Below, piece after piece: positions 35,471 through 58,523 of a stretch of 64,000 nucleotides of DNA; positions within the stretch are counted from its first letter, which is position 1, and every line of letters begins with the position of its first letter. The DNA is from Cohaesibacter haloalkalitolerans (lineage in GTDB: Bacteria > Pseudomonadota > Alphaproteobacteria > Rhizobiales > Cohaesibacteraceae): the NCBI RefSeq assembly GCF_003574655.1, contig NZ_QNUM01000006.1:124001-188000 (forward strand). Direction: 5' to 3'. Position numbers and translations under genes: made by a program. The notes under the pieces are model-generated. The model did not search any database and had not been told where the DNA came from. It saw nothing but the letters and a program-made list of their open reading frames with translations.

Positions 35471-36058
35471 CTATTTGCCACAGAAGGCGCGCGACTGTTC
35501 GGTCCATTGCCCGAACTTGCTGGCGACAAGATTGCGGATCACCGCGCAGACATAGCGTTTCTGGGCGGGATTGTTGTCAGGGCCCGCATGATATCGGGCA
35601 ACCGCCATGGTCCAGCTACCCTGACTGGCACGCAATTGCTTGAGAAATTTTGCCGCATAACGCACGTTGGCGTGCGGGTCGATCATTTCATCAAGAGAGG
35701 CAAACTGGTTGGAATGATAATGGTGATTGATCTGCATGCAGCCGATGTCGATCAGTTTCTTGCCATCCTGGCGCGCTTGCCGGACGGTATCGAGCGCCGC
35801 CTTTTTGGAGCCGGTCATGACAGTCTTGCCCTCAATGTTGAGGGCAAAGGGGTGCAGCTTGAGGCCGCGCCCGGTTTCCGTCAGCCCGACCGCATAGAGA
35901 ATGCCCAGCGGCACCCCCTCGCTTGAGGCGGCGGCGCGCATTTCCTTTTCGCAAACGGCATCGACCGTAGCGGTTTCCGCATGTGCGACCGCAGGAGCCA
36001 TCGCCATGCTGCTAGAGAGTAAGGCCCCGATAAGGCTGAGTGCCAGACAGGCTTTCAT
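35471..36058 (-). CDS. Exported lytic transglycosylase (SLT domain)
   Basis: 195 residues. A signal peptide (MKACLALSLIGALLSSSMAM, cleaved after AHA) is followed by an SLT-type lysozyme fold: GILYAVGLTETGRG with the catalytic glutamate, IDIGCMQINHHYH, and MAVARYHAGPDN. It probably opens peptidoglycan for rod assembly, the role FlgJ's C-terminal domain plays elsewhere. The start is within the 3' end of fliK, preceded by GGAG six bases upstream; the overlap with fliK is 47 bases. Confidence 0.88.
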   Translation of the reverse strand: MKACLALSLIGALLSSSMAMAPAVAHAETATVDAVCEKEMRAAASSEGVPLGILYAVGLTETGRGLKLHPFALNIEGKTVMTGSKKAALDTVRQARQDGKKLIDIGCMQINHHYHSNQFASLDEMIDPHANVRYAAKFLKQLRASQGSWTMAVARYHAGPDNNPAQKRYVCAVIRNLVASKFGQWTEQSRAFCGK

Positions 36059-37460
36059 GGTCAGCTCCATCGCTGTTCTCGTCCATGCCGTCAAAATGAA
36101 AAAGCCCGCCATCACCACCAGCGGAGTGTTGATCCGCTCCATTGCCAGCGCCGGAGCCGTTGTTGAAGCCGGAAAAGGCAGATTTGTCCTGGCCGGCCTG
36201 CTGACCAAGGCTGTCACTCGTCGAAGGGGGCAGGATCTGCGATGCTCCACGGTCGTCCACGGCCACCACAGAAATGTGGTCGGCCTGATAGCCCGCCCGC
36301 TGCAGCAGGCGGTTGAGCTCGCCCTGATTGCTCTGGAGCATCTTGGCGGTTTCGGCCTTGGAAGCCTCGATCCGCACCTCGACATTGTTGTCATTGAGAC
36401 GCACCGACAGGCGCACCTTGCCCAGATCGGCCGGATGCAGCTGGATGTCGAGAACGCGCAGCAGATCGCCACTGCGATGAAGCCGTAGCGCACTGGTCTG
36501 CGGCTCCGCGCTGTTGAAGGACTGGGCACCCTCCGATCGGGCTGCCGGGGCATCAAGGCCCTTGCTGATGGCATCTCCGATCTGTTTCATGACGGAATCT
36601 GCCACGGAAAATCCCGTCTGGGATTGCGTGCCGGTCAGTGTTTCGACCATGTCGACCGGTGCAAAATGGGTTTCCTGCTTGAGCACCGAGAAGCCGTCTC
36701 TTTGCGCCTGCTGGGTTGGTGTCAGAATGGCTTCCTTGACGATCGGCAGCACCTTGTCGAAGGCTGATGTGGCGCGCACGTCAAGGGACTGATCCCTGCG
36801 ATCCTGCGCGGTTATGCTGCTGGTCCGGCTGGCTTTTGTCAGTTGGTCGAGGGTGCCAAGCGCAACTTTCTGTGGCTTCTGGTCACCAACCTGATCGCCC
36901 GTTGAGGACGACGGAGCCGATCCGGCCTCTTTTGCTCCGGCGGCGCCGGCCTGTCTGGCGTTTGCTGCGTCCGTTTCAGCTGCCTCCGCCAGCCCCTGAG
37001 CCTTGCCCATAGTCGCCGCCGCGTCCTGATTCTTGCCAGCCAGCTGGGCCGATGGGGCTTCCGGCGTGGTCATTGGACCAAATCCGGCTTCGGCGAGCAA
37101 TTGCTGCACGGTCATGCCTGCCGAACGCATGTCTATTGTCGACTGAGACGTGCGATCCTTGGAAGAAGCTCCATCGCCTGCTTCTTTGCTTGCGGCCTTT
37201 TTGCTGGCGTTCGGAGAGACCTGCTCAAGCAACCGCTCGAACGGTGATTGTCCATCCCTTGCAGAGGTGTCTTCAGCCCGTGTGCCGGTTTCAGTGGCAT
37301 TGACATCTGCGGCACCGCCATCAACCGCATCGCCACTCCCGGTTCCGTTGCCGCGTGCGCGATGGTTGTTCTGGCTGTCACCCTTGATGGCGGATTTGCC
37401 GGAGAGAAGCGACTGAGGATTTGCTAGCGTGCCGGAAGCGGCAATGGTCTGATTTGGCAT
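36012..37460 (-). CDS. fliK: Hook-length control protein FliK (MotD-type)
   Basis: 482 residues. The first 300 are low-complexity, rich in Ala, Ser, Gly and charged residues. The C-terminal part, LRLHRSGDLLRVLDIQLHPADLGKVRLSVRLNDNNVEVRIEASKAETAKMLQSNQGELNRLLQRAGY, is the Flg_hook domain (residues about 325-395). The gene, once called motD in Sinorhizobium, controls hook length and the export switch. It starts 5 bases after the motC stop. Confidence 0.88.
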   Translation of the reverse strand: MPNQTIAASGTLANPQSLLSGKSAIKGDSQNNHRARGNGTGSGDAVDGGAADVNATETGTRAEDTSARDGQSPFERLLEQVSPNASKKAASKEAGDGASSKDRTSQSTIDMRSAGMTVQQLLAEAGFGPMTTPEAPSAQLAGKNQDAAATMGKAQGLAEAAETDAANARQAGAAGAKEAGSAPSSSTGDQVGDQKPQKVALGTLDQLTKASRTSSITAQDRRDQSLDVRATSAFDKVLPIVKEAILTPTQQAQRDGFSVLKQETHFAPVDMVETLTGTQSQTGFSVADSVMKQIGDAISKGLDAPAARSEGAQSFNSAEPQTSALRLHRSGDLLRVLDIQLHPADLGKVRLSVRLNDNNVEVRIEASKAETAKMLQSNQGELNRLLQRAGYQADHISVVAVDDRGASQILPPSTSDSLGQQAGQDKSAFSGFNNGSGAGNGADQHSAGGDGGLFHFDGMDENSDGADHESLSGTQPYRGLTL

Positions 37461-37465
37461 AAGCT

Positions 37466-38953
37466 TTACCGTAGTGAGGATTGTTGCGCGGTCGACAGGA
37501 AGAGGTCGGTCTTGTCAAGGGCCTGTTTGCCATGGACGAGCGTTCCCAGTTGCCAGCCGGGTTCGCCCTTGCCGGCATCGGTGGTTGACAGGCTGTATCC
37601 CAGAGCTGGGTCGCTGCTTTCCGGCCAGGCGCGGATGTTGTTCAGAACATGAGCGATCTTTTCGGCCAGTGTCTGGTCCCGAGCACTCAGATTGCCTCTT
37701 TTTACCTTCCAAAGATGCTGGAGGGATTGTTCGATGGTGTTGGCATTCAGCATCGATCCGGCCAGATAGAGATGGGAACGGGCCTGACTTTCGGAATCAT
37801 CCATCGTCAGTGGCAGAGCCGCCTTGGCCGCCTCGTTGGACAGCGTGACATTGCCTGCAATCAGGCTCGAATAGGACAGCAGCAGATAGAGGCTGCGGCG
37901 GGCATCAAGGTCGAATTCCATGATGACGCTGTCCAGTTCGGCGAAGGTGTGCTTGTCCTCGCTTTCGCCAAACCGGCGCATGGCAATGGCGAAGCGGCGG
38001 CGGAAATCGGAATTGTAGATCGAATTGTTGAACCGCCGCATATATTGCAGCGAATAGGACTGGAACATCCGTGGGTCGTTGAGCGCTGCTGCAACCGAGA
38101 CCGCACGGCGCAGGGCTGCTTCCTCGACCAGCGAGCCGGGCAACAGCAGCCGGGCCTTGTCAATGGAAATCAGCGCCTCTTCCAGATCGTCCGGCATCGC
38201 CAGGATGGCCTGAACGAGCGCGACCTGTCCGCCCAGTGTCGGCGGCAGTGTCAGCGGGTCGATGGGTTGGAGGATGCTGCGGGCCTCGGCCTTCCGCCCC
38301 TCGATATAGGCCAGTGCCCCCTTCAACAGGGCCGGGTCGATCGCTGCGGGCGGATCAAGGCTGAGCAGGCGGTGCCCGACGGCAGGGTGCCCGCCGGACA
38401 AGAGATGGATGACTGCGGCGCGGGCATTCTGTTCGTCATGCCAGACCTGCGGGTCGATCGCCAGAAAATGCTCGTTGAGATGGATGATCAGTTTGTGCTG
38501 TGCATTGAGCGCCTGAGTAGAGCCCTTGGCGGTTTGTGCCTGCAGATTCTGGACCACGCGCACCTGCATGTAGGGCTGCATTTCATCGACGGAAGCATCC
38601 ACCGCGTGACGGATCGTTGCCTCTGTTGCTGCGACGCCTGCCTCCACTGCTTCCGGGTTGTTGGTATCAGCAGGATTGACCGTTTCCCGGGCGACTGTTG
38701 CCGCATCTGCCTTGCTGCCAGTCGAGCTGCCAGCCCTGTCGGCGCCTGTCTTGCTGGAATCGGGAGCGAGCAGCGGGGATACGCCGGGGATGACCCGAAC
38801 AGCCTTCGGTTCCGCGTGTTTCTGAAGCGGGGTCTGATCCGCCTGCGCCAGAACCGGGGTGCTGGCAAGGGTATTGGCAAGGGTACTGGCAAGGCAGGCA
38901 AACAGAACGTAACCGGGGAGCAGGAAACGGCCTGCTGGAACGCATTTTGTCAT
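37466..38953 (-). CDS. motC: Periplasmic motor protein MotC
   Basis: 495 residues with a signal peptide (LFACLASTLANTLASTPVLA) and an alpha-helical body typical of rhizobial MotC: YMQVRVVQNLQAQTAKGSTQALNAQHKLIIHLNEHF, LLSGGHPAVGHRLL, LEEAALRRAVSVAAAL. MotC binds periplasmic MotB and is required for torque. It overlaps the motB stop by 4 bases. Confidence 0.9.
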   Translation of the reverse strand: MTKCVPAGRFLLPGYVLFACLASTLANTLASTPVLAQADQTPLQKHAEPKAVRVIPGVSPLLAPDSSKTGADRAGSSTGSKADAATVARETVNPADTNNPEAVEAGVAATEATIRHAVDASVDEMQPYMQVRVVQNLQAQTAKGSTQALNAQHKLIIHLNEHFLAIDPQVWHDEQNARAAVIHLLSGGHPAVGHRLLSLDPPAAIDPALLKGALAYIEGRKAEARSILQPIDPLTLPPTLGGQVALVQAILAMPDDLEEALISIDKARLLLPGSLVEEAALRRAVSVAAALNDPRMFQSYSLQYMRRFNNSIYNSDFRRRFAIAMRRFGESEDKHTFAELDSVIMEFDLDARRSLYLLLSYSSLIAGNVTLSNEAAKAALPLTMDDSESQARSHLYLAGSMLNANTIEQSLQHLWKVKRGNLSARDQTLAEKIAHVLNNIRAWPESSDPALGYSLSTTDAGKGEPGWQLGTLVHGKQALDKTDLFLSTAQQSSLR

Positions 38954-40464
38954 GACCGGGTTTCCTTGATCGGCTGTACGAGGATCTCGATGCGGCGGTT
39001 GTCATCGGCCTCCGGGTTGTCCGGATGCTTCAGGGCCCGGTCGGCATAGCCTTCCACTCTGAGCAGCCGGTGTTCATCCAGCCCCCCGCGGATCAGCATG
39101 AAGCGGGCCATGTGGGCACGGGCGGTCGACAGGTTCCAGTTGTCCGACGTACCGCTGCGGAAGGGCCGGCTATCGGTGTGGCCGCGAATGATGATGTCAC
39201 CCTTGATCTGGCCGAGGCTATGGGCGATGCGTTCCAGCAGCTTGATGGAGCGTGCCGTGGGTTCGGAAGAGCCGATGGCAAACATGCCATAGTCGGCGCT
39301 GTCAGAAACATTGATCAGAATGTCGTCGCCGCTGGTTGTGACCGTCAGCTCGTTGCCGATGGTCTGGCGTGGCGTTTCATTGAGGGCATTGGCAAGAAAG
39401 GTGCGGAACTCGTCGATCTTGTCGGAAAGCTCTGCCGACTGTCCGGCTTTGGCCTCAGCCGATCCGCTGGCAGCATCCTTGACAGAGAAGTCTTCTTTGG
39501 AGCCTTCGGTGGTGCTGTTATGCGGGGCTTTCATCGCACTCGCGGTGGCTTGCCCCTCGACAAGCTCGGATGGCTCACTGGCATCCTTCCCGGTGGCCTT
39601 CTGATCTGCTTTCTGGCCCTTTTCCACATCGTTGCCGAATAGAGCTGACACCGGACGGACGGTCTCGAAGGTTGCCTTGGCAATTTCCATCTTGCCGTTT
39701 TCCATCTTGTCGTTTGATGACCCGTTGGCAAGGGAGGACGCATCCGGGCGCTCTTCGCCGGTGATGGAGAAATTGGCAGAGCTGGCATCCTCGGTCAGCT
39801 CGATATCATCGAGAGAGAGCGGATTGAGAGCCCAGGACAGGGGCGCAAAGGGATCACGCATGGCTGTGCCGCCCTGTCCCTGAATCTTTTCGGCAAGAAT
39901 GGTGGACGCATCGTCCCGTTCTACCGGCCCGCTGTCCTTCTCCTCTTTCATGATGATGCGATCAAGCACGCCATAGGGATCGGAGAAGATCTCGGCTTCG
40001 GTGAAGGTGGGAAGCTGGCGGGTGGTGGTGCCGCTGCGGGCAACACCACTGTTCTGCACCAGAACAGCCTGCTGGGCTGCTGCTGCGCTCGCAACGTTCG
40101 GGGTAGCCTGTCCGCTGCGGCCTGCCGCCGTGGAAGCTCCGGAGGCGGTGCTCGCCTTGTCCTGTTTGGTCGGGCTTGCTTCCTCGCCAACCGGCTTGGC
40201 GTTGGTTTCCGGATCCTCCAGACCCTTGGGGAAGGGAGTCATCGAGGACAGATTGACCGGGTTGAAATAGCGGGCGATATGCTTCTTGGCCGCTTCATCC
40301 GTGCTGGAGATGAGCCACATCACCATGAAGAAGGCCATCATGGCAGTCATGAAGTCGGCATGGGCAATCTTCCAGACACCGCTGTGCGGTTTCTCGATGG
40401 TCATGTCCGGCCGCCGTCGGATGATGATCAGTTCCTTTTCGTGGTCTTGTTCCAGATCAGTCAT
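38950..40464 (-). CDS. motB: Stator protein MotB, extended form
   Basis: 504 residues, much longer than the about 310 of enteric MotB. The single membrane helix IAHADFMTAMMAFFMVMWLI contains the proton-binding aspartate D37, followed by the plug region. A roughly 280-residue Ala/Ser/Lys-rich linker leads to a C-terminal OmpA-like peptidoglycan-binding domain (GHTDSRPF, NWNLSTARAHMARFMLI, GYADR). The long linker fits rhizobial MotB, which works with MotC and MotE. The gene starts 6 bases before the preceding fliH-like stop. Confidence 0.92.
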   Translation of the reverse strand: MTDLEQDHEKELIIIRRRPDMTIEKPHSGVWKIAHADFMTAMMAFFMVMWLISSTDEAAKKHIARYFNPVNLSSMTPFPKGLEDPETNAKPVGEEASPTKQDKASTASGASTAAGRSGQATPNVASAAAAQQAVLVQNSGVARSGTTTRQLPTFTEAEIFSDPYGVLDRIIMKEEKDSGPVERDDASTILAEKIQGQGGTAMRDPFAPLSWALNPLSLDDIELTEDASSANFSITGEERPDASSLANGSSNDKMENGKMEIAKATFETVRPVSALFGNDVEKGQKADQKATGKDASEPSELVEGQATASAMKAPHNSTTEGSKEDFSVKDAASGSAEAKAGQSAELSDKIDEFRTFLANALNETPRQTIGNELTVTTSGDDILINVSDSADYGMFAIGSSEPTARSIKLLERIAHSLGQIKGDIIIRGHTDSRPFRSGTSDNWNLSTARAHMARFMLIRGGLDEHRLLRVEGYADRALKHPDNPEADDNRRIEILVQPIKETRS

Positions 40465-41269
40465 CTTGCACCGCCTGTTTGAGTTGGGTCAGATAGTCGG
40501 AAAGCCGCGTCTCGAAGACGCTGTTGTCTACCTTGAGGGACAGTTCCGTTTCCTCGGTCTGCTGGCGGGTCGTCTCGACAGAGCCAACCATTTCCGTAAG
40601 CTTTTCACAGTCGACAACATTGCCCAGTTGCCGGATGAGATGGTCCGGCCCGCTCAGGAGCGGACTGTCGGCAATCGAGTCCTGCAGGGCCTGTTCTGCG
40701 ACATCGGCGAACATCTTGACGATGCGGACATGGGCATGCTCGGCAATGAAGGGTTCAAGCGTCTCGGCGACCTGATCGGCCAGATCGTTGCGGATCTTCT
40801 CAAGCTGTCCGGCAATCTGACCTTTGAGCTGCCGGTGCAGCTCGGCCGCCAGCAACTGCTTCATGCTCTCGAATTCCTCATGCAGCTTCTGTCGCTGTTG
40901 CGAGAGCTGCTCCTGCCAGAGGATTTCGGCATCTCTCAATCCCCGAGCCCAGGCTTCGGTGCGCACGATCTGGGTTTCTTCCGGCACAATGGTCACGATC
41001 TTCTGTGCCTTGACCGGGATCAGCTTGTCCAGCCCGCCAAAGACAATGGGCTGAGGGTCTGCAGATGCCGCCAGCGGCGTCATCACTGGAACGGTTATGG
41101 GGCTGGAGGGGGAGGCGGACTTGCCCGCCCCCGCGCCACCGTCATGACCATTCTTTCCAATTGGGTCCCCCGGTCCGAGCGACTGGAACTCAGGCTTGCG
41201 CAGACGCGGTGCGTCCTGCTCACTGGCCTTGACGGAAGGGATCAGATCCTTGAGTGCCAGAGCCATCAT
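40457..41269 (-). CDS. FliH-like export ATPase regulator
   Basis: 270 residues. A disordered N-terminal third is followed by a long helix (EAWARGLRDAEILWQEQLSQQRQKLHEEFESMKQLLAAELHRQL) and a C-terminal domain ending LSLKVDNSVFETRLSDYLTQLKQAV, which resembles the end of FliH (a D-x-S-x2-x-RL pattern). It is located directly after fliF (4-base overlap) and before motB. FliH binds FliI and tethers it to the C ring. The similarity is faint; it may also be described as an unnamed rhizobial flagellar protein. Confidence 0.6.
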   Translation of the reverse strand: MMALALKDLIPSVKASEQDAPRLRKPEFQSLGPGDPIGKNGHDGGAGAGKSASPSSPITVPVMTPLAASADPQPIVFGGLDKLIPVKAQKIVTIVPEETQIVRTEAWARGLRDAEILWQEQLSQQRQKLHEEFESMKQLLAAELHRQLKGQIAGQLEKIRNDLADQVAETLEPFIAEHAHVRIVKMFADVAEQALQDSIADSPLLSGPDHLIRQLGNVVDCEKLTEMVGSVETTRQQTEETELSLKVDNSVFETRLSDYLTQLKQAVQDD

Positions 41270-44292: not shown

Positions 44293-44691
44293 TCACAAGC
44301 CGTCGCCGGTCTTGTTGGCAACCATTTCAAGAATATCCAGATTGTCCTGCTTTTCCTGCTCCTTGCGTTCCTTGGCCTCGACCATTGAAAGAAACCGTTT
44401 GACGGATTCCATCGTCGTGCCGTGTTTGCGCAATTGCTGTTGCAAGGTTTCCAGCGCCTGATCCAGCTCGGCCCGTTCACGCGCCACCTTCTTGAGCTGC
44501 TTGGCGTGGGAGGCCATCAGCGCGTTGACCAGCACCGGGTCGCCTTCAGCCATCAGTTTGACCAAAGAGGCTTCCCGGGCGCGCAGCTGCTTCTTCTGCT
44601 GAACGGTCTGCTCGACGGCCTGCATCGTGCTTTTGTGGAGCTGTTCCTGGGCGTGCAGAAGTCTGCGAAGTCTTTCGGTTTTTTTTGACAT
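44293..44691 (-). CDS. fliJ: FliJ-like coiled-coil export chaperone
   Basis: 132 residues, almost entirely helical and rich in Lys, Glu and Gln (KTERLRRLLHAQEQLHKSTMQAVEQTVQQKKQLRAREASL). This coiled coil, its size and its place after fliR suggest FliJ, the stalk protein of the export ATPase. Sequence motifs in this family are weak, so the name rests on shape and context. It begins 13 bases after the fliR stop. Confidence 0.65.
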   Translation of the reverse strand: MSKKTERLRRLLHAQEQLHKSTMQAVEQTVQQKKQLRAREASLVKLMAEGDPVLVNALMASHAKQLKKVARERAELDQALETLQQQLRKHGTTMESVKRFLSMVEAKERKEQEKQDNLDILEMVANKTGDGL

Positions 44692-47695: not shown

Positions 47696-48151
47696 TCAGA
47701 TCTTGTTGATGGCGGATTCGGGGAAGAAGCTGAATTCCTCGACCAGAATGTCATGGACCAGCTGCGCCTGCATGCGTGCGTTGACATTGTCCTTGATCAG
47801 AGTGGTCAGGGCATCGATGTCATAATGCTTGAGGTCTTCGAAATCGATCGTCTTGTCCGTGAAGATGGCGCGGAAGGCCTCATCCACGACGAACGGATTG
47901 GGCGGAATGGCCAGTTCCTTCAGGGTGGTGGAATCGATCGTGTAGACAAACTGCGCCACCACGTAGCCGCGCACCTTGCCATCCGTGATCATCGGCACGC
48001 TGATGGCGCGGGTCTTCTCGAAGTCCATGCCTTCCTGCATCGGCGAGGCGGACAGTTCGGTAAAGCTCTTGTTGTTCATCCAGTGTCCGGACAGGTAGGC
48101 CGACAGGGTCGAGACGGCACCGATCCACAGAGCGAGCAGGGCATAGCGCAT
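47696..48151 (-). CDS. Conserved-type flagellar-locus protein of unknown function
   Basis: 151 residues with one N-terminal hydrophobic segment (MRYALLALWIGAVSTLSAYLSG) and a mixed domain containing ISVPMITDGKVRGYVVAQFVYTID and a terminal helix. The layout, a membrane anchor with a small periplasmic domain, somewhat recalls FliL in miniature (TDGKVRGYVVAQ strand, LVHDILVEEF end). It is last in the DUF1217-flgF-fliI unit, 6 bases after the flgN-like gene. I do not recognise it firmly. Confidence 0.6.
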   Translation of the reverse strand: MRYALLALWIGAVSTLSAYLSGHWMNNKSFTELSASPMQEGMDFEKTRAISVPMITDGKVRGYVVAQFVYTIDSTTLKELAIPPNPFVVDEAFRAIFTDKTIDFEDLKHYDIDALTTLIKDNVNARMQAQLVHDILVEEFSFFPESAINKI

Positions 48152-48157
48152 GGCGTC

Positions 48158-48610
48158 TTATCTTTCCTGCATCTGGGCAGCGTAGGTGCCATCGGACTCG
48201 GCTGCCAACATGGCCTTGGACAACAGCTCGGTGATCTCGCGAACCGCATCGAGATGGCGGCCGAGGATCTCCCTGTTCTCTGCCAGCAGGCGCTTGAGAA
48301 CGGTCAGTTCGTTGGTCACCGAAGTGGACAGCGTCTTGATATCGACTGCGTCGGTCAACCGGCTCAGATCAAGCAGCACACGGGACTTCTCGTCGCTGTA
48401 GGAGCGCAGGTTGACGTGGCGTTCCTCGCGCAGGGCATGGGTTTCCTTTGCCACCACGCGAATGGCGCGTTGCACGGTTTCCAGAATGGTGTCCTCGATG
48501 GGGGCTAACCGACCGGTCCCCCCATTGTCGCCACCCGGCGCCAGCGAAAGATCAACCGTTTGTGCATCGCGCTTTTGAAGAGATGTTTGCATGTCAGTCT
48601 CTGTTTTCAT
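48158..48610 (-). CDS. FlgN-like export chaperone candidate
   Basis: 150 residues, helical. The last half, LLDLSRLTDAVDIKTLSTSVTNELTVLKRLLAENREILGRHLDAVREITELLSKAMLAAESDGTYA, has the helical pattern of FlgN-type chaperones with the closing DGTYA. FlgN would carry FlgK and FlgL to the export gate. It starts 16 bases after the flgJ-like stop. The alternative is an unnamed flagellar protein. Confidence 0.5.
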   Translation of the reverse strand: MKTETDMQTSLQKRDAQTVDLSLAPGGDNGGTGRLAPIEDTILETVQRAIRVVAKETHALREERHVNLRSYSDEKSRVLLDLSRLTDAVDIKTLSTSVTNELTVLKRLLAENREILGRHLDAVREITELLSKAMLAAESDGTYAAQMQER

Positions 48611-48626: not shown

Positions 48627-49088
48627 TCAGGCCTGATCGGGCAGGCCGAGATAGGAGGCAAGATCGAGCATGTCGCTCTTGGCCATCTGGTTGCCGAGCT
48701 GTTCGGACAGCATCGAACGCCACATGTCGCCGGAAAGCCCTTCGCCATAGATGCCCTCGGTATCTCTGGGCAGCATGGTTTCCAGCATTTCGTGCAGCAT
48801 CAGGGCGACGAATTTCTCGCTCACCGGATTCGTGGTTCTGGCGATGCCTTTGGCATAACGGGATATGCTGGCATCGGACAGAACCGCCGGTTCGGCAAGG
48901 CTGGCATACTGTTTTTCAAAGCTCGCAGCATCGGTTGCGCTGTTGCCGCCATCCCCTGTCGCTGCACTGGCATAATGCAGGCGTTGCAAGGGGGCTGTGC
49001 CAAGTTTTTGGGCTGCCATCTGACGTTCGACCGGATCGGCCGCATTGACAACGTCCATCACCAGATCGGAAGGGATTGAAATAGCCAT
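48627..49088 (-). CDS. FlgJ N-terminal-type rod-binding protein
   Basis: 153 residues. The C-terminal half, PVSEKFVALMLHEMLETMLPRDTEGIYGEGLSGDMWRSMLSEQLGNQMAKS, is the rod-binding domain seen in FlgJ (F-x-A-L-M-L-x2-ML pattern and G-x-G-x2-GDMWRSM). The muramidase domain of enteric FlgJ is absent; a separate transglycosylase gene lies at 35471-36058. Probable rod cap or scaffold in the periplasm. 98 bases separate it from fliI. Confidence 0.8.
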   Translation of the reverse strand: MAISIPSDLVMDVVNAADPVERQMAAQKLGTAPLQRLHYASAATGDGGNSATDAASFEKQYASLAEPAVLSDASISRYAKGIARTTNPVSEKFVALMLHEMLETMLPRDTEGIYGEGLSGDMWRSMLSEQLGNQMAKSDMLDLASYLGLPDQA

Positions 49089-49186: not shown

Positions 49187-50617
49187 TCAACCTTTCCTCG
49201 TGTCCTGCGCCATCAGAGCCTCTGACAAGGCGCGGAATGGATCGGTCTTGACATCAATCTTCTCGCCCGGCTGCTGGCACAATGCATCATAGATGCGCGG
49301 CACCAGCTCCATGGCATGATCAAGCTCGGCGTCGCTTCCCTTGGCGTAGCCTCCCAGCAGCCGAAGATCGCGGGTCTCCTCATAGCGGGCGATCATGCCC
49401 TTGAGTTTCATGATCAGCTTGGTCTCGTTGGGAGCCCAGGCCTTGTTGGCCATACGCGAAACCGAGGACAGCAGGTTGATTGCCGGATAGCGGCCCTGAT
49501 CGGCAATCGAGCGGTCCAGAACAATGTGGCCGTCCAGAATGCCGCGAATGGAATCCGAGACCGGATCATTGTGATCGTCCCCATCGACCAGCACGGCGAA
49601 AACGCCGGTGATGGCACCACAGGGCTTGTCGGACTCTTCGATGGCAGGGCCAGGGCCAGCCCGTTCCAGCAGATGCGGGAGATCGGAAAAGACACTCGGG
49701 GCAAAGCCGCGCGCTACGGCCGGTTCACCAGAGGCCATGGCCACATCCCGGGACGCCAGAGCAAAGCGGGTTGCCGAATCCATGATCATCAGCACCGAGC
49801 GGCCTTGGTCGCGAAAATATTCGGCCAGTGCCATTGCCGTCTTGGGCGCCTGTCGCCGCATCATGGCGCTTTCGTCGCCGGTTGCGACCACGACAATCGA
49901 ACGCTCCAGCGCATCGCCGAGGGTGTCGGAAATGAATTCGCGCACCTCTCGGCCACGTTCGCCGACAAGCGCAACAATGACGATGTCAAAGGCCAGCGCC
50001 TTGGCCAGCATCGCCAACAGAGTGGACTTGCCGACGCCGGAGCCGGCGAAGACGCCGATCCTCTGGCCGACACAGAGCGGCGTGAACAGGTCGATGGCCC
50101 GCACGCCTGTGCGCACCGGAGTGTTGACAAGACCGCGCTCCATCGCCGACGGCGGGTCATTTTCCAGATGCACGCTCCTGTTGCCCGGCACCAGCATGCC
50201 CTTGCCGTCAATCGGGCGGCCAAGCGCGTCGATCACCCGACCCTTCCAGCTGTTGTCGGGGCAGAACTGGATCGGACCCATGCGGAAAACGCGGGTGCCA
50301 ATGCCGACATCGAGGTGGCGGCTGTAGGGCTTGGCAAACACCTTGCCCTGATCAATGCGGATGATCTCGGCCCGTGCCGGCCCTCTGCCTGCCGGGCGCA
50401 TGACGTCGAGTTCGACGCAGTCGCCGATATGCACGTGCTTGTCGAGTCCGCTGATGCCGAAATAGGCCGGGGTGATCTGGGTGACGGCACCACAGATCCT
50501 GACAGTCTGGTGCTCTTCCTGCAGCAGGCGCACAACGCCCTGCAGGCGATCCAGTTTATTCGCGGTTTCGCGACGGCGGCTTGTTGGTCTGCCCTCGGGC
50601 GAAGTCGTTGTTGACAC
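49187..50617 (-). CDS. fliI: Flagellar export ATPase FliI
   Basis: 476 residues, close to the F1-beta-like family length. Walker A is GVFAGSGVGKST and the ATPase signature SVLMIMDSATRFALASRDVA follows the GERGREVREFI segment. It powers unfolding and delivery of export substrates. It starts 4 bases after the stop of the preceding hypothetical gene. Confidence 0.95.
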   Translation of the reverse strand: MSTTTSPEGRPTSRRRETANKLDRLQGVVRLLQEEHQTVRICGAVTQITPAYFGISGLDKHVHIGDCVELDVMRPAGRGPARAEIIRIDQGKVFAKPYSRHLDVGIGTRVFRMGPIQFCPDNSWKGRVIDALGRPIDGKGMLVPGNRSVHLENDPPSAMERGLVNTPVRTGVRAIDLFTPLCVGQRIGVFAGSGVGKSTLLAMLAKALAFDIVIVALVGERGREVREFISDTLGDALERSIVVVATGDESAMMRRQAPKTAMALAEYFRDQGRSVLMIMDSATRFALASRDVAMASGEPAVARGFAPSVFSDLPHLLERAGPGPAIEESDKPCGAITGVFAVLVDGDDHNDPVSDSIRGILDGHIVLDRSIADQGRYPAINLLSSVSRMANKAWAPNETKLIMKLKGMIARYEETRDLRLLGGYAKGSDAELDHAMELVPRIYDALCQQPGEKIDVKTDPFRALSEALMAQDTRKG

Positions 50618-50621
50618 CTTG

Positions 50622-51194
50622 TCAGTCCTCTTTGGACGTCATCGCGATATAACGCGCTTGCATCTGGGCCAGAGCGTCCAGCGGAATCTTGTTGGCCGGA
50701 TGCTGCGCCAGTCCTGTAATCTGCGGCAGAACCGTCTTGTCGCTGCTTTCAATCGCGGCCATCTGGTCGCTGTCCTTGCCGGTCAGATCGACCACGCCGG
50801 TTGCCATTTCATCAAGGGCGCGGATATAGGCCGACAGATCGAGCGGCGCATCGCTGCGGCCTGACACAGGCGGAAGAGCTGCCCTATCGGTTTTGGCAAG
50901 GGATGCTTGCGACATCGCCTGATTGCCATGGCCGGACACAGCGTCTGTTGCCGAGCTGTCGAAGGACGAAAACAGTGAGGAGATGACCGAGAAGAAATCC
51001 CCGATCACTGGAATGGTTTCGAGCGAAAACGAACCGTTGAGGAGCCCGACCGTCTCCGACTGGCGCATGCCGAAGCCTTGCGCCGGACGGGGAAAGGCAA
51101 CCTCGGAGGCACCGTTCTGATGCAGCGACCGGGTCGACAGATCCCGTGGCTGGATGGCATCCAGAGCCGCGCTTGATAGATCCGGAACCGTCAT
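50622..51194 (-). CDS. Flagellar-unit protein of unknown function
   Basis: 190 residues without a domain I can name. The N-terminus is polar, residues 55-75 (SLETIPVIGDFFSVISSLFSSFDS) are moderately hydrophobic, and the C-terminus ends in an amphipathic segment (LDALAQMQARYIAMTSKED). It overlaps flgF by 4 bases and precedes fliI by 4, so it is translated as part of the unit. Possible rod, export or chaperone role by context only. Confidence 0.6.
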   Translation of the reverse strand: MTVPDLSSAALDAIQPRDLSTRSLHQNGASEVAFPRPAQGFGMRQSETVGLLNGSFSLETIPVIGDFFSVISSLFSSFDSSATDAVSGHGNQAMSQASLAKTDRAALPPVSGRSDAPLDLSAYIRALDEMATGVVDLTGKDSDQMAAIESSDKTVLPQITGLAQHPANKIPLDALAQMQARYIAMTSKED

Positions 51195-51916
51195 GAGGTT
51201 TCTCCAAGGTCTCGAATGGCGCCGCGCTGGGCGTCCTCGGAGGTTTCCATCACTTTCTGGGCACTTTCAAAGGCGCGACTGATCATGATGAGACGGGTCA
51301 TTTCTGTCATCGGGTTGACGTTGGAGCCTTCCACGAAGCCTTGCAGAACACGTGCCTTGGATGGATCCTGTAATGGAAACGCCACCCCTTCCGGGACGAC
51401 GGCCGAGCCGCCATAGCGTTTGAGCTTGTCGTCCGGGCTGATTTCGAACAGGCCGATGCGGTCGACCGTGTGGCCATTCTGGGCGATCTCGCCATCAGCC
51501 TGAATGACCAGAGAGCCCCCTTGCGGATCAACCTGAATTGTCGAGCCGCTGGCCGACAGGATCGGTTCGCCATTGACTGTGGTCAGGCGGCCCGTGCTGT
51601 CCATCTGCATGCGGCCATCGCGGGTATAGGCTACCTCGCCACCACGCTGGAAGGAAAACCAGGCATCACCCTCGATCGCCAGATCAAGCGGATTGCCCGA
51701 TTGGCTGATCGCCCCCTTCTCGCGCGAGATATGGGTTTGTCCCATGGAGACAAAACTGACGGAATCGCTGCCCGCATTGGCAAGGATTTCGGAGAAGCTC
51801 ACCGCTTCGCCGCGATATCCCGCCGTGTTGATGTTGGCAACGTTGCGGGCGACCGACTGCATCCGGTTATCAAGGGCAATCTGCGAGGACAGGGAGACAT
51901 AGTTCGATGTCGGCAT
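51191..51916 (-). CDS. flgF: Rod protein FlgF
   Basis: 241 residues. N-terminal VSLSSQIALDNRMQSVARNVANINTAGYRGEAVSF and C-terminal QGFVEGSNVNPMTEMTRLIMISRAFESAQKVMET are FlgF/FlgG-type rod signatures; length and lack of the FlgG-specific middle identify FlgF. It overlaps the DUF1217 gene stop by one base. Confidence 0.92.
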   Translation of the reverse strand: MPTSNYVSLSSQIALDNRMQSVARNVANINTAGYRGEAVSFSEILANAGSDSVSFVSMGQTHISREKGAISQSGNPLDLAIEGDAWFSFQRGGEVAYTRDGRMQMDSTGRLTTVNGEPILSASGSTIQVDPQGGSLVIQADGEIAQNGHTVDRIGLFEISPDDKLKRYGGSAVVPEGVAFPLQDPSKARVLQGFVEGSNVNPMTEMTRLIMISRAFESAQKVMETSEDAQRGAIRDLGETS

Positions 51917-52698
51917 CAGATACCCCCGAGCTGCAGACCCTGCAGCGAAAGAAGCAGATCCTCATCCATTCCGATGACCGAGCTGCTGGAAATGAGAACA
52001 TTGGGAACACTGGCCATCGTGGTGCCATTCTCCAGATCATAAAGAACCGAGAAGCGCTGGACGAGTTCCTGGACATAGTCCGGATCGGACAACTGGTCGA
52101 TATCGATCTTGCTGGAAATGGCCTCCGACAGCCAGTCGATGTCGGCCCCGGCGGCTTCCGACGGGATGCCGCTGATGGTGCGGGCCACTTCCGCCAGAGC
52201 CTTGTCGCCGAGCAGTTCCATGGATGAGGTGATGGTGGAGGCCTTCTTCTGGAAATAGAGCGCCAGTTGAACGCCGGTATTCTCTTCCCCTTCGCGGATC
52301 TCCAGCGTCTGCTCCAGATATTTGTCGACGACGCCCTGCTGTGCCTTCTCGAACGAGGTGGTGGCCTCGCCGTGAGAGGCAAAATTGAAGACCGTGGCGA
52401 ATTCCTTGAAGCGGGTGTCCGTTAGCTTGTTGGCAAAGGAGTCGCTGTTGGATATGCCCTCTTCGAGCACCTTGCGCATGTAGGCCTTGGCATAGATCAT
52501 GTCTTCAAGGCCCATGGCTTTCATGGCGTAACTGTAGATTTCATAGTCATCGAGAAAATCGTCGATGGATTTGATATCCCGTATCTTCTCAAGATAATTG
52601 TCGGTCGCCCGGCTTACCTGGGCGTCCTGACTGAGCGTCTCGATGGTTTTGCTGTAGTCTCTATTCAGCATGCTGACGCGCAGATATGTATCGGTCAT
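51916..52698 (-). CDS. DUF1217 flagellar-locus protein
   Basis: 260 residues, helical. The repeats of the family are visible: YLEKIRDIKSIDDFLDDYEIYSYAMKAMGLEDMIYAKAYMRKVLEEG and a later RFKEFATVFNFASHGE, then KYLEQTLEIREGEENTGVQLALYFQKKA. DUF1217 genes are found next to flgF in rhizobia; the function is not established. It leads the minus-strand unit, divergent from motA, with its own flagellar element. Confidence 0.85.
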   Translation of the reverse strand: MTDTYLRVSMLNRDYSKTIETLSQDAQVSRATDNYLEKIRDIKSIDDFLDDYEIYSYAMKAMGLEDMIYAKAYMRKVLEEGISNSDSFANKLTDTRFKEFATVFNFASHGEATTSFEKAQQGVVDKYLEQTLEIREGEENTGVQLALYFQKKASTITSSMELLGDKALAEVARTISGIPSEAAGADIDWLSEAISSKIDIDQLSDPDYVQELVQRFSVLYDLENGTTMASVPNVLISSSSVIGMDEDLLLSLQGLQLGGI

Positions 52699-53898: not shown

Positions 53899-54828
53899 AT
53901 GGCACAGGCACATCACCTTTCACCGATCACCGATCGGCTGCTGGATGCAGCAGGAAACTCGATTGAACGTCTGCCAATGCTCCCGATCATCTTCGATCGA
54001 ATGGCACGGGTATTTGCAGACACAATGCGTCAGCGGGCGGCGTCTCCGGTTTTTGTTTCCGTAAGCTATATCGGCAACGATCGCATCGGCGACATCCTGG
54101 ACGAAAATGAGGCCAATGCACTGGCTGCGGTCGTCTATACGCCGGAATGGGACACTCGCCTGCTGATCGGCTTTGACCGGGACTTCATCTTCTCGATGAT
54201 GGAGGTTCTGTTCGGGGCGGATGGCACCGAGCCGCCGATTGATGACGAGCGGCCTTTCTCGAATATCGAGACGCGCGTCGCCCGATCCCTGTTCATGGAT
54301 GCCATCAAGGCGCTGGAAGATGCCCTGAAGTCGATTTCCAACATCACGTTGAAATTCGAGCGCATCGAAACCCGCATGGACTTCGCCGTGATCGGTCGCC
54401 GCAACAATTCGGCTGTCGTCGGTCGTCTGCTGTTGCAGGCCATCGGCCGGGGCGGCGAAATGTTTGTCGTCGTGCCCCACTCCGCCCTGACCCCGTTGCG
54501 CCAGAATCTGGCTCAGGTCGTCAGCGGCGAAGGCAACAACCGCGACAAGGCATGGACCCAGCAGTTCCAGGCGGAAATCCAGCGCACCCAGATCAAGCTT
54601 GATGCCGTGCTTGAGGAGCAGACCATCACGCTTGACAGGCTTGCGGATCTCAAAATCGGTGATGTCATCCAGCTGCAGGCCACCCCGCGTTCCAAAGTTT
54701 CGCTGCAATGTAACAGGCAACCTCTCTTCAGTTGTTCAATGGGCCAGTCCGAGGGCTCCTATTGTCTTCAGGTCGAAGAGCAGATCCACCAGAAAGAGGA
54801 CATCCTAGATGATATCTTATCTCGCTGA
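53899..54828 (+). CDS. fliM: Flagellar switch protein FliM
   Basis: 309 residues: a FliM/CheC-like middle domain (FVSVSYIGNDRIGDILDENEANALAAVVYTPEWDTRLLIGFDRDFIF) and a C-terminal SpoA domain (QIKLDAVLEEQTITLDRLADLKIGDVIQL). The usual N-terminal CheY-binding motif of the LSQ-EIDALL type is not seen. It forms the C ring with FliN and FliG. It starts 3 bases after motA and overlaps the next gene by 20 bases. Confidence 0.93.
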   Translation: MAQAHHLSPITDRLLDAAGNSIERLPMLPIIFDRMARVFADTMRQRAASPVFVSVSYIGNDRIGDILDENEANALAAVVYTPEWDTRLLIGFDRDFIFSMMEVLFGADGTEPPIDDERPFSNIETRVARSLFMDAIKALEDALKSISNITLKFERIETRMDFAVIGRRNNSAVVGRLLLQAIGRGGEMFVVVPHSALTPLRQNLAQVVSGEGNNRDKAWTQQFQAEIQRTQIKLDAVLEEQTITLDRLADLKIGDVIQLQATPRSKVSLQCNRQPLFSCSMGQSEGSYCLQVEEQIHQKEDILDDILSR

Positions 54829-55324
54829 CGGCATTTTGATGATTGCCCTGATCGTTACCTCGGTCTGGGTGATGAAAATGAACAATCGCCTGCAGAAGCT
54901 GCGCGACAATCACTTTGAGTTCCGCCGCGTCATGGAACAGACCAATCAGGCCCTTGAGGGGATCGAGGTGTCGATTGACGAGATCAACGTGCGCGGACAG
55001 CAGGTTCTCAATGCTCTGGGCCGGCGAATCGACGAAGCGCGCGACATTGTCACCGACATTGACAAGATGACCCGCGAAGTGCGTGGCCAGCAGAAGGAAT
55101 TGCGTCTGGAAATGGTCGCCTTTCAGGAAGCGATCGGCAAGGAATGCAACAACCAGATCGGCATTCTGAAAAAGATCAGCGAAGCGGCCAACGAGGCGGT
55201 GAGGAAGGAAGCCTCAACCGGCCAGGGTGCCAGTGCGGCCGGGGCCTCGGCTGAACGCCCGCCCTTCTATCGCATCGAGGACCAGCTGCCTTCCATGCTG
55301 CGCCGCGTCAACCTGAAATCATGA
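54809..55324 (+). CDS. DUF6468-type membrane-anchored coiled-coil protein
   Basis: 171 residues: one N-terminal membrane helix (SYLADGILMIALIVTSVWVMKM), then a coiled coil (LRDNHFEFRRVMEQTNQALEGIEVSIDEINVRGQQVLNALGRRIDEARDIVTDIDKMTREV) and a proline/alanine-rich tail. It lies between fliM and fliN, where DUF6468 genes are found in alphaproteobacteria. Function not established; a C-ring or stator accessory is possible. Confidence 0.78.
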   Translation: MISYLADGILMIALIVTSVWVMKMNNRLQKLRDNHFEFRRVMEQTNQALEGIEVSIDEINVRGQQVLNALGRRIDEARDIVTDIDKMTREVRGQQKELRLEMVAFQEAIGKECNNQIGILKKISEAANEAVRKEASTGQGASAAGASAERPPFYRIEDQLPSMLRRVNLKS

Positions 55325-58025: not shown

Positions 58026-58523
58026 ATGAACAACGCTTCCCGGAAATCGACCATGATCAGTCGAGACCCTCTTGCGACCGCAGGTCGTAGAGATGTTTAT
58101 AAACACGCCATGCTATGGGCAATCAGGGATATCATCAATGAGCTGAGGCTTGTCGATGCAGGGCATCTCGTTTCCTACATTTTCACAGATTCCCATGCCA
58201 ACATTCAGGATCTGGTCGCGTCGTCCTGCGAGTTGTTCCTGAAGGAAAACACCCTGTTCTACCGGGGCACGGCCGAGGCCGAACTGGAATGGTCCGGCCC
58301 GCCGAAGGTCCTGTTGGGGATGCAGTTCCGCCATCTCGATCTCAATGCCCGCTTCAGGCTTCTGTTCTGGGGCGAAGAGACGGAGATCGTGCTGGAAGAC
58401 ATCAGCTATGAAGACGGCACTAACGATAGCAACGGCGACATCGAGCGCTTTGTGCGGGTGTTGTCCGATGCCCGCCTCAAACAGCCGGAAGCCCGCTGGG
58501 TAGCCAACGGGTTGCTCGAATAG
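58026..58523 (+). CDS. Flagellar-unit protein of unknown function downstream of flhB
   Basis: 165 residues with no named domain. It is soluble, with HAMLWAIRDIINELRLVDAGHLVSYIFTDSHANIQDLVASSCELFLKENTLFYRG in the first half and a beta-rich middle (LEWSGPPKVLLGMQFRHLDLNARFRLLFWGEETEIVLEDISY). It starts 2 bases after the flhB stop, so it is translated as part of the motA-flhB unit. An internal ATG nine codons on is an alternative start. Confidence 0.7.
   Translation: MNNASRKSTMISRDPLATAGRRDVYKHAMLWAIRDIINELRLVDAGHLVSYIFTDSHANIQDLVASSCELFLKENTLFYRGTAEAELEWSGPPKVLLGMQFRHLDLNARFRLLFWGEETEIVLEDISYEDGTNDSNGDIERFVRVLSDARLKQPEARWVANGLLE

Follow-up and report, generated by a model that had tools for sequence, protein, structure and literature searches.

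A divergent gene in the flgF-fliI slot as a putative accessory of a lateral-type flagellum in Cohaesibacter

Introduction

Few parts of the flagellum are as poorly understood as its lineage-specific accessory proteins. The 64,000-nucleotide stretch of Cohaesibacter haloalkalitolerans DNA analysed here (the window) contains a large flagellar cluster in which a 190-codon open reading frame with an ATG start (positions 50622-51194, minus strand), hereafter X, is lodged between the gene of the rod protein FlgF and that of the export ATPase FliI. An earlier sequence-only reading of this DNA described X as tightly coupled within a flagellar unit and without recognisable domain, and suggested a possible lineage-specific rod or export factor serving assembly. 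This raises the question of what kind of protein X is, whether it has relatives elsewhere, and whether the flagellum depends on it.

Results

X is encoded within a run of flagellar genes

The run around X reads DUF1217-flgF-X-fliI-rod-binding-FlgN-like. At its head lies the gene of a DUF1217 protein (51916-52698, minus strand; PF06748, E 7.8e-54), followed by flgF (51191-51916, minus strand; NF009282 cut-off passed, E 1.6e-88), whose stop codon and the ATG of X overlap by 4 nt (ATGA). Four nucleotides (50618-50621) separate the stop codon of X from the GTG start of fliI (49187-50617, minus strand), the product of which passes the fliI_yscN cut-off and matches FliI_clade3 (E 2.1e-176, 586.7 bits) at 0.75 bit below the cut-off. 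The 190-residue gene overlapping flgF and standing 4 bases ahead of fliI is thus as first described and, given this 4-nt spacing, X and its two neighbours, the genes of the rod protein and the export ATPase, are probably translated together. Downstream of fliI are encoded a rod-binding, FlgJ-type protein (48627-49088, minus strand; PF10135, E 7.9e-6) and a weak candidate for a FlgN-like chaperone (48158-48610, minus strand; PF05130, E 0.082, below cut-off), whose counterparts in G401 and G402, two genomes described below, share 41-43% identity with it. A FliJ-like candidate is found at 44293-44691 (HrpB7, E 0.013, with unrelated families scoring better); the FlgN- and FliJ-like names are our presumption from weak similarity and position.

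The window further encodes FlgB/C-type rod proteins, FlgG, FlgA, FlgI, FlgH, FliL and FliP, as well as FlgE, FlgK, flagellin, MotB and FliK. From position we also presume it to hold flhA, fliR, fliF, fliJ, motA, fliM, fliN, fliG, flhB and FliH-like and MotC-like genes. Several other proteins of the cluster deserve mention. A protein with an SLT transglycosylase domain (35471-36574, minus strand) is encoded apart from the rod-binding protein; in enteric bacteria, FlgJ combines the transglycosylase and rod-binding parts. The 151-residue product of 47696-48151 (minus strand) has no Pfam match and a single chance-level NCBIfam line, and its counterparts in G401 and G402 (38-41% identical) adjoin the flgN-like genes. 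Two plus-strand genes beside fliM/fliN and flhB (54809-55324 and 58026-58523), whose products have no Pfam match above cut-off, have counterparts at equivalent places in the same two genomes. Finally, two minus-strand genes beside motB and fliF (37466-38953 and 40457-41269) have no Pfam match at E<=0.01, and we take their positions for those of MotC- and FliH-like proteins.

The C. haloalkalitolerans genome encodes one more FlgF (contig C19) and one more FlhA (contig C23), which are 31% and 45% identical, respectively, to their window counterparts. X is present as a single copy, in the window cluster, and hence at one of two flagellar systems. Gene order suggests that the window cluster is of the lateral type, as does the FlhA of the dual-system genome G054, one set of which is closer to the window FlhA than the other (66% versus 46%). 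PMC6406911 lists both lateral and subpolar flagellar systems for Cohaesibacter.

X matches no named family

Pfam gave no family for X at E<=1, and NCBIfam a single line at chance level (E 0.059; 12.3 bits, the cut-off being 330 bits), in agreement with the absence of a recognisable domain claimed earlier; on these two collections, membership of a named family is rejected. A sequence search of the PDB returned no match at E<=1, and no paper on the gene was found in the literature searched, as judged by titles and the starts of abstracts. Neither is X a disguised form of FlgJ or FliK, since the FlgJ-type match (PF10135) falls on 48627-49088 and the Flg_hook match expected of FliK (PF02120) on 36012-37460, with none in X.

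X accompanies the cluster in Cohaesibacter and is under purifying selection

X was found in 12 of 101 genomes, that of C. haloalkalitolerans included, all of them from Cohaesibacter and each with an open frame in the flgF-fliI slot. Among the 18 genomes of the genus (G000-G017), 12 encode a window-type FlgF and exactly the same 12 have X, while X occurs in none of the remaining six, one of which is 64% complete (G005) and another devoid of any FlgF match (G008). The 4-nt overlap with flgF recurs at all 12 loci, and the tight coupling put forward by the sequence-only reading is supported. Weak matches in G023 (E 0.0078) and G043 (E 0.0043) were excluded, no flgF having been found around either of them.

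The dN/dS of X ranges from 0.18 to 0.32 in eight pairs, compared with 0.007-0.08 for flgF, 0.02-0.043 over the first 288-308 codons of fliI and 0.025-0.116 for the DUF1217 gene; X thus evolves several-fold faster than its neighbours. This range, together with the retention of X in 12/12 cluster-bearing genomes and 0/6 others of the genus, establishes X as a real gene, and a chance open reading frame is ruled out by conservation and dN/dS. Constraint is strongest in residues 55-78 and at the C-terminus. Indeed, in three pairs analysed by region, nonsynonymous/synonymous differences amount to 1/7, 0/2 and 0/9 for residues 55-78 and to 0/5, 0/2 and 2/6 for residues 157-190, whereas residues 79-113 (11/3, 10/5 and 15/9) are not constrained.

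The same slot is occupied in the Roseibium/Polymorphum family

A protein in the same slot, X', was found in the family of Roseibium and Polymorphum (f42), members of which include Polymorphum gilvum SL003B-26A1, Roseibium sp. Sym1 and Roseibium algicola. We take this family to be the Stappiaceae of GTDB; NCBI places Polymorphum under Paracoccaceae. X' occurs in 46 of 87 genomes of the family (E<=0.001), all of them among the 49 that encode a window-type FlgF (E<1e-60). The order flgF-X'-fliI, with 4 nt shared between the intervening open reading frame and the flgF stop, was seen at all 30 loci examined; at three further loci, from the genus g129, the overlap is 1 nt by the first start. X' measures 214-279 residues in the loci read. 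The sequence-only reading had named co-occurrence with flgF-fliI as a check and absence from all relatives as a refutation. Co-occurrence is borne out by X in 12/12 window-type Cohaesibacter genomes and X' in 46/49 of the family.

Three genomes of the family with a window-type FlgF yielded no X'. In G443 the contig ends within the slot, which leaves 48 informative genomes, 46 of them with X'. In G400 and G401, flgF and fliI are directly adjacent and leave no space for another gene. Of 35 window queries compared with the 40 kb surrounding the G401 slot, 20 gave a counterpart, two re-matched flgF only and 13, X among them, were not found; the corresponding figures for its sister G402, which has X', are 21, one and 13. 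As the window X is too divergent to detect X' in such a comparison, the absence in G401 rests on the reading of the slot itself; in G400 the check covered flgF and fliI. X' therefore looks dispensable in G401, where the slot is empty while these 20 counterparts are kept. Furthermore, no slot frame longer than 44 residues exists at ten other loci of the order that have both flgF and fliI (L028-L036 and L038; L037, with no fliI match, was left out). The proposal of an assembly gene thus survives in part: X goes together with the window-type cluster, but a core role is argued against by the empty slot of G400 and G401, by the other flagellar genes that G401 keeps nearby and by the ten loci of the order that do without.

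Such dispensability raises the possibility of a nearly neutral hitchhiker, kept mainly through translational coupling to fliI. The fast evolution and long variable linkers of X are compatible with it, as is a single loss in the sisters G400 and G401, both of which retain flgF and fliI. However, dN/dS stays below 0.35 in 8/8 pairs, amino-acid changes in the three pairs number 1, 0 and 0 in residues 55-78 and 0, 0 and 2 in residues 157-190, and X' is kept in 46 of the 48 informative genomes, which makes this explanation quite improbable.

X and X' are homologous

A profile of the 12 Cohaesibacter sequences (A1), run against 397 genomes of the order, returned 21 matches, the 12 of the genus and nine in f42 (best E 2.3e-7). 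The latter lie in the C-terminal parts of the proteins, and in both loci read they fall in the same flgF-fliI slot. The reverse profile (A6), built from 30 f42 and 22 class-wide sequences and none from Cohaesibacter, gave 15 matches in the same genomes, namely 11 in f42 and four at the place of X in Cohaesibacter (E 2.4e-6 to 1.2e-4), missing eight of the 12 copies of the genus. Alignment of A1 with the f42 alignment (A4) by hhalign reached a probability of 97 (E 9.8e-11) over 77 columns ending at the C-terminus, and none of 150 shuffles of the X columns equalled the C-terminal score. The element shared by the slot family, LAxHxxNxLPxDxLxxxQxR[HY], is present in X, which also lies, like the family at large, in a window-type cluster with its start over the flgF stop. 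The first PxDLS region of X shows no such relation to the f42 N-terminus (12/150 shuffles reach the score). Sequence profiles and position together show X and X' to be one family in one slot. Confinement of X to Cohaesibacter is ruled out by the profiles in both directions and by the slot synteny in f42; far from being absent from relatives, X is linked to the f42 protein. The earlier description of X as lineage-specific is accurate insofar as the profiles found the family, among the 397 genomes of the order, in Cohaesibacter and f42 only, but X is no orphan.

Trees of FlgF and FliI moderately support a probable single entry into the slot

Trees of FlgF plus FliI group the X-bearing clusters with a support of 0.78 in FastTree (raw tree) and 81 in IQ-TREE (UFBoot), Cohaesibacter itself being supported at 100. 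The f42 clusters are not monophyletic, as the genus g129 falls outside Cohaesibacter and the other f42 clusters (UFBoot 97). The cluster tree consequently differs from the family tree, possibly through cluster transfer or tree error. G400 and G401 adjoin G402 (locus L083, with X') at a UFBoot of 100, and since this sister has X' their lack of the gene is best read as one loss. Most likely, the gene would have entered the slot once, in the ancestor of the Cohaesibacter and Roseibium/Polymorphum clusters. We hold this single origin with moderate confidence, the main weight resting on synteny and profiles and the trees contributing moderately.

X' carries a domain shared with class-wide NPLQHIP proteins

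The N-terminal domain of the f42 proteins is homologous to NPLQHIP proteins found across the class (E 2.2e-31), which occur in 153 of the 385 alphaproteobacterial genomes sampled. Searches with two domain-bearing f42 proteins matched nothing in Pfam or NCBIfam, and the string NPLQHIP was not found in the literature searched. FlhA is present in 125 of the 153 genomes with an NPLQHIP protein versus 94 of the 232 without (odds ratio 6.6); being confounded by phylogeny, this link with flagella is given no weight here. To survey the class-wide context, 90 flanking open reading frames at 30 loci (L085-L114) were considered and 33 picked by hand, favouring those that looked recurrent; these 33 comprise 13 YkuD proteins, seven response regulators and four proteins of alanine-racemase fold, and no flagellar family is seen among the 25 listed. 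Several class-wide NPLQHIP genes have as neighbours a gene for a YkuD L,D-transpeptidase and one for an OmpR-type response regulator.

While all 30 f42 proteins have NP[LF][QH], none of the 12 X sequences has NPLQ. The NPLQHIP core with YR and TxD is not seen in X, and the GGP loop within the long helix is absent from all 12 sequences. Comparison of A1 with the class-wide profile (A5) by hhalign was negative (probability 0.8, E 0.069), so that homology between X and the class-wide proteins over their whole length is unsupported. The class-wide C-terminal ALDKY-type helix gave ambivalent figures, 3/150 shuffles reaching the score against the X C-terminus and 10/150, a negative result, against that of f42. 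Residues 52-80 of X scored 16.98 against the f42 N-domain, above the best shuffle at 15.65 (0/150), over nine columns and with a probability of 13.7. This is suggestive, and no more, of the IPxVGD segment of X (within residues 55-78) being a remnant of the NPLQHIP core. Because f42 is the one family among the 397 genomes of the order in which the domain was found, capture of a member of the NPLQHIP family into the flagellar cluster is the probable origin of X'; X would then have lost most of the domain in Cohaesibacter.

X is predicted to be acidic and mostly disordered

Structure prediction gives X a mean pLDDT of 53.1 and no ordered fold, which suggests a mostly disordered protein; its net charge is -9. 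The best part is the C-terminal helix, predicted at residues 172-187 (block pLDDT 79 for 171-180 and 69 for 181-190), within the conserved element ITGLAxHPANKIPLDxLAQMQxRY (residues 157-190; 50625-50726, minus strand), which emerges from the alignment, dN/dS and hhalign. X' is similar in this respect, with a mean pLDDT of 58.8 and its best part in a C-terminal helix at 249-267 (block pLDDT 84-92). Alignment and hydropathy further delineate a hydrophobic segment in X, FSLExIPxVGDFFSVISSLF (residues 55-78; 50961-51032, minus strand). Two short motifs accompany it, a first PxDLS (residues 16-20; 51135-51149, minus strand) with P16, D18, L19 and S20 invariant in 12/12 sequences, and a second, (P)LDLS (residues 117-121; 50832-50846, minus strand), with D119 and L120 invariant and S121 nearly so. 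The linkers are long, variable and poorly conserved. On reading the sequence, no signal-peptide-like or membrane-strength segment was seen, the maximum 19-residue mean hydropathy being 1.41.

These features bear on whether X might leave the cytoplasm as a flagellar export substrate, for instance a rod-associated or cap-like protein. Its gene directly follows the rod gene flgF, its predicted disordered N-terminus is compatible with type III export, and the pattern F[FL]Sx[VI] at residues 67-71, present in 12/12 sequences, resembles the FxxxPhi gate motif known from work in Salmonella. However, the pattern is not kept in X', rod-binding and SLT proteins are already encoded in the window, the gene is missing from two genomes (G400 and G401), and a rod subunit, being packed, would seldom be expected to diverge as rapidly as X. 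We consider export unlikely, though credible. Another possibility is a regulator of anti-sigma or checkpoint type, which would report the status of the rod or of export to gene expression. FlgM-type regulators are small, acidic and disordered with a conserved helix, a description that suits X, and a single copy at one of two flagellar systems agrees with such a role; on the other hand, no regulator model of Pfam or NCBIfam resembles X, and nothing in its placement amid structural and export genes hints at regulation. A regulatory function therefore appears improbable.

Discussion

X is a real gene, and apparently an optional accessory of the flagellum. Our preferred reading, to which we assign a probability of roughly 45%, is that of a divergent, lineage-specific accessory of a lateral (rhizobial-type) flagellum, a cytoplasmic and disordered tether tuning assembly at the export apparatus. 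X would be an acidic, mostly disordered tether, made of the hydrophobic segment around residues 55-78, linkers and two PxDLS motifs, together with a C-terminal helix that is its most constrained part. It would most likely stay in the cytoplasm, where this helix may dock on the export apparatus, at FliI/FliH or at the export gate, and it would modulate assembly of the lateral flagellum rather than be required for it. A more far-reaching scenario joins this function to the origin of the gene: an NPLQHIP protein captured into a flagellar operon would have become a new tether between rod assembly and the export ATPase in the lateral flagella of marine Cohaesibacter and its Roseibium relatives, its domain being lost in Cohaesibacter. 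Taken as a whole, we judge this scenario unlikely.

The interest of X lies in its combining a well-defined slot with a history of probably one gain and a loss observed in two sister genomes, and with a conserved docking-like element; it also draws attention to NPLQHIP, an unnamed domain widespread in alphaproteobacteria.

Compared with known systems, the lateral cluster of Bradyrhizobium diazoefficiens has fliI straight after flgF1 in the genome-order list of PMC6406911, a list of 35 conserved lateral coding sequences from which less conserved genes may be omitted. The class-wide NPLQHIP proteins have neighbours that differ from the flagellar slot of X. X' is unlike X in its full NPLQHIP-type domain with a GGP-type loop and its mostly greater length, but shares with it the flgF-fliI slot with the flgF overlap, the homologous C-terminus and the grouping of their clusters on the FlgF and FliI trees.
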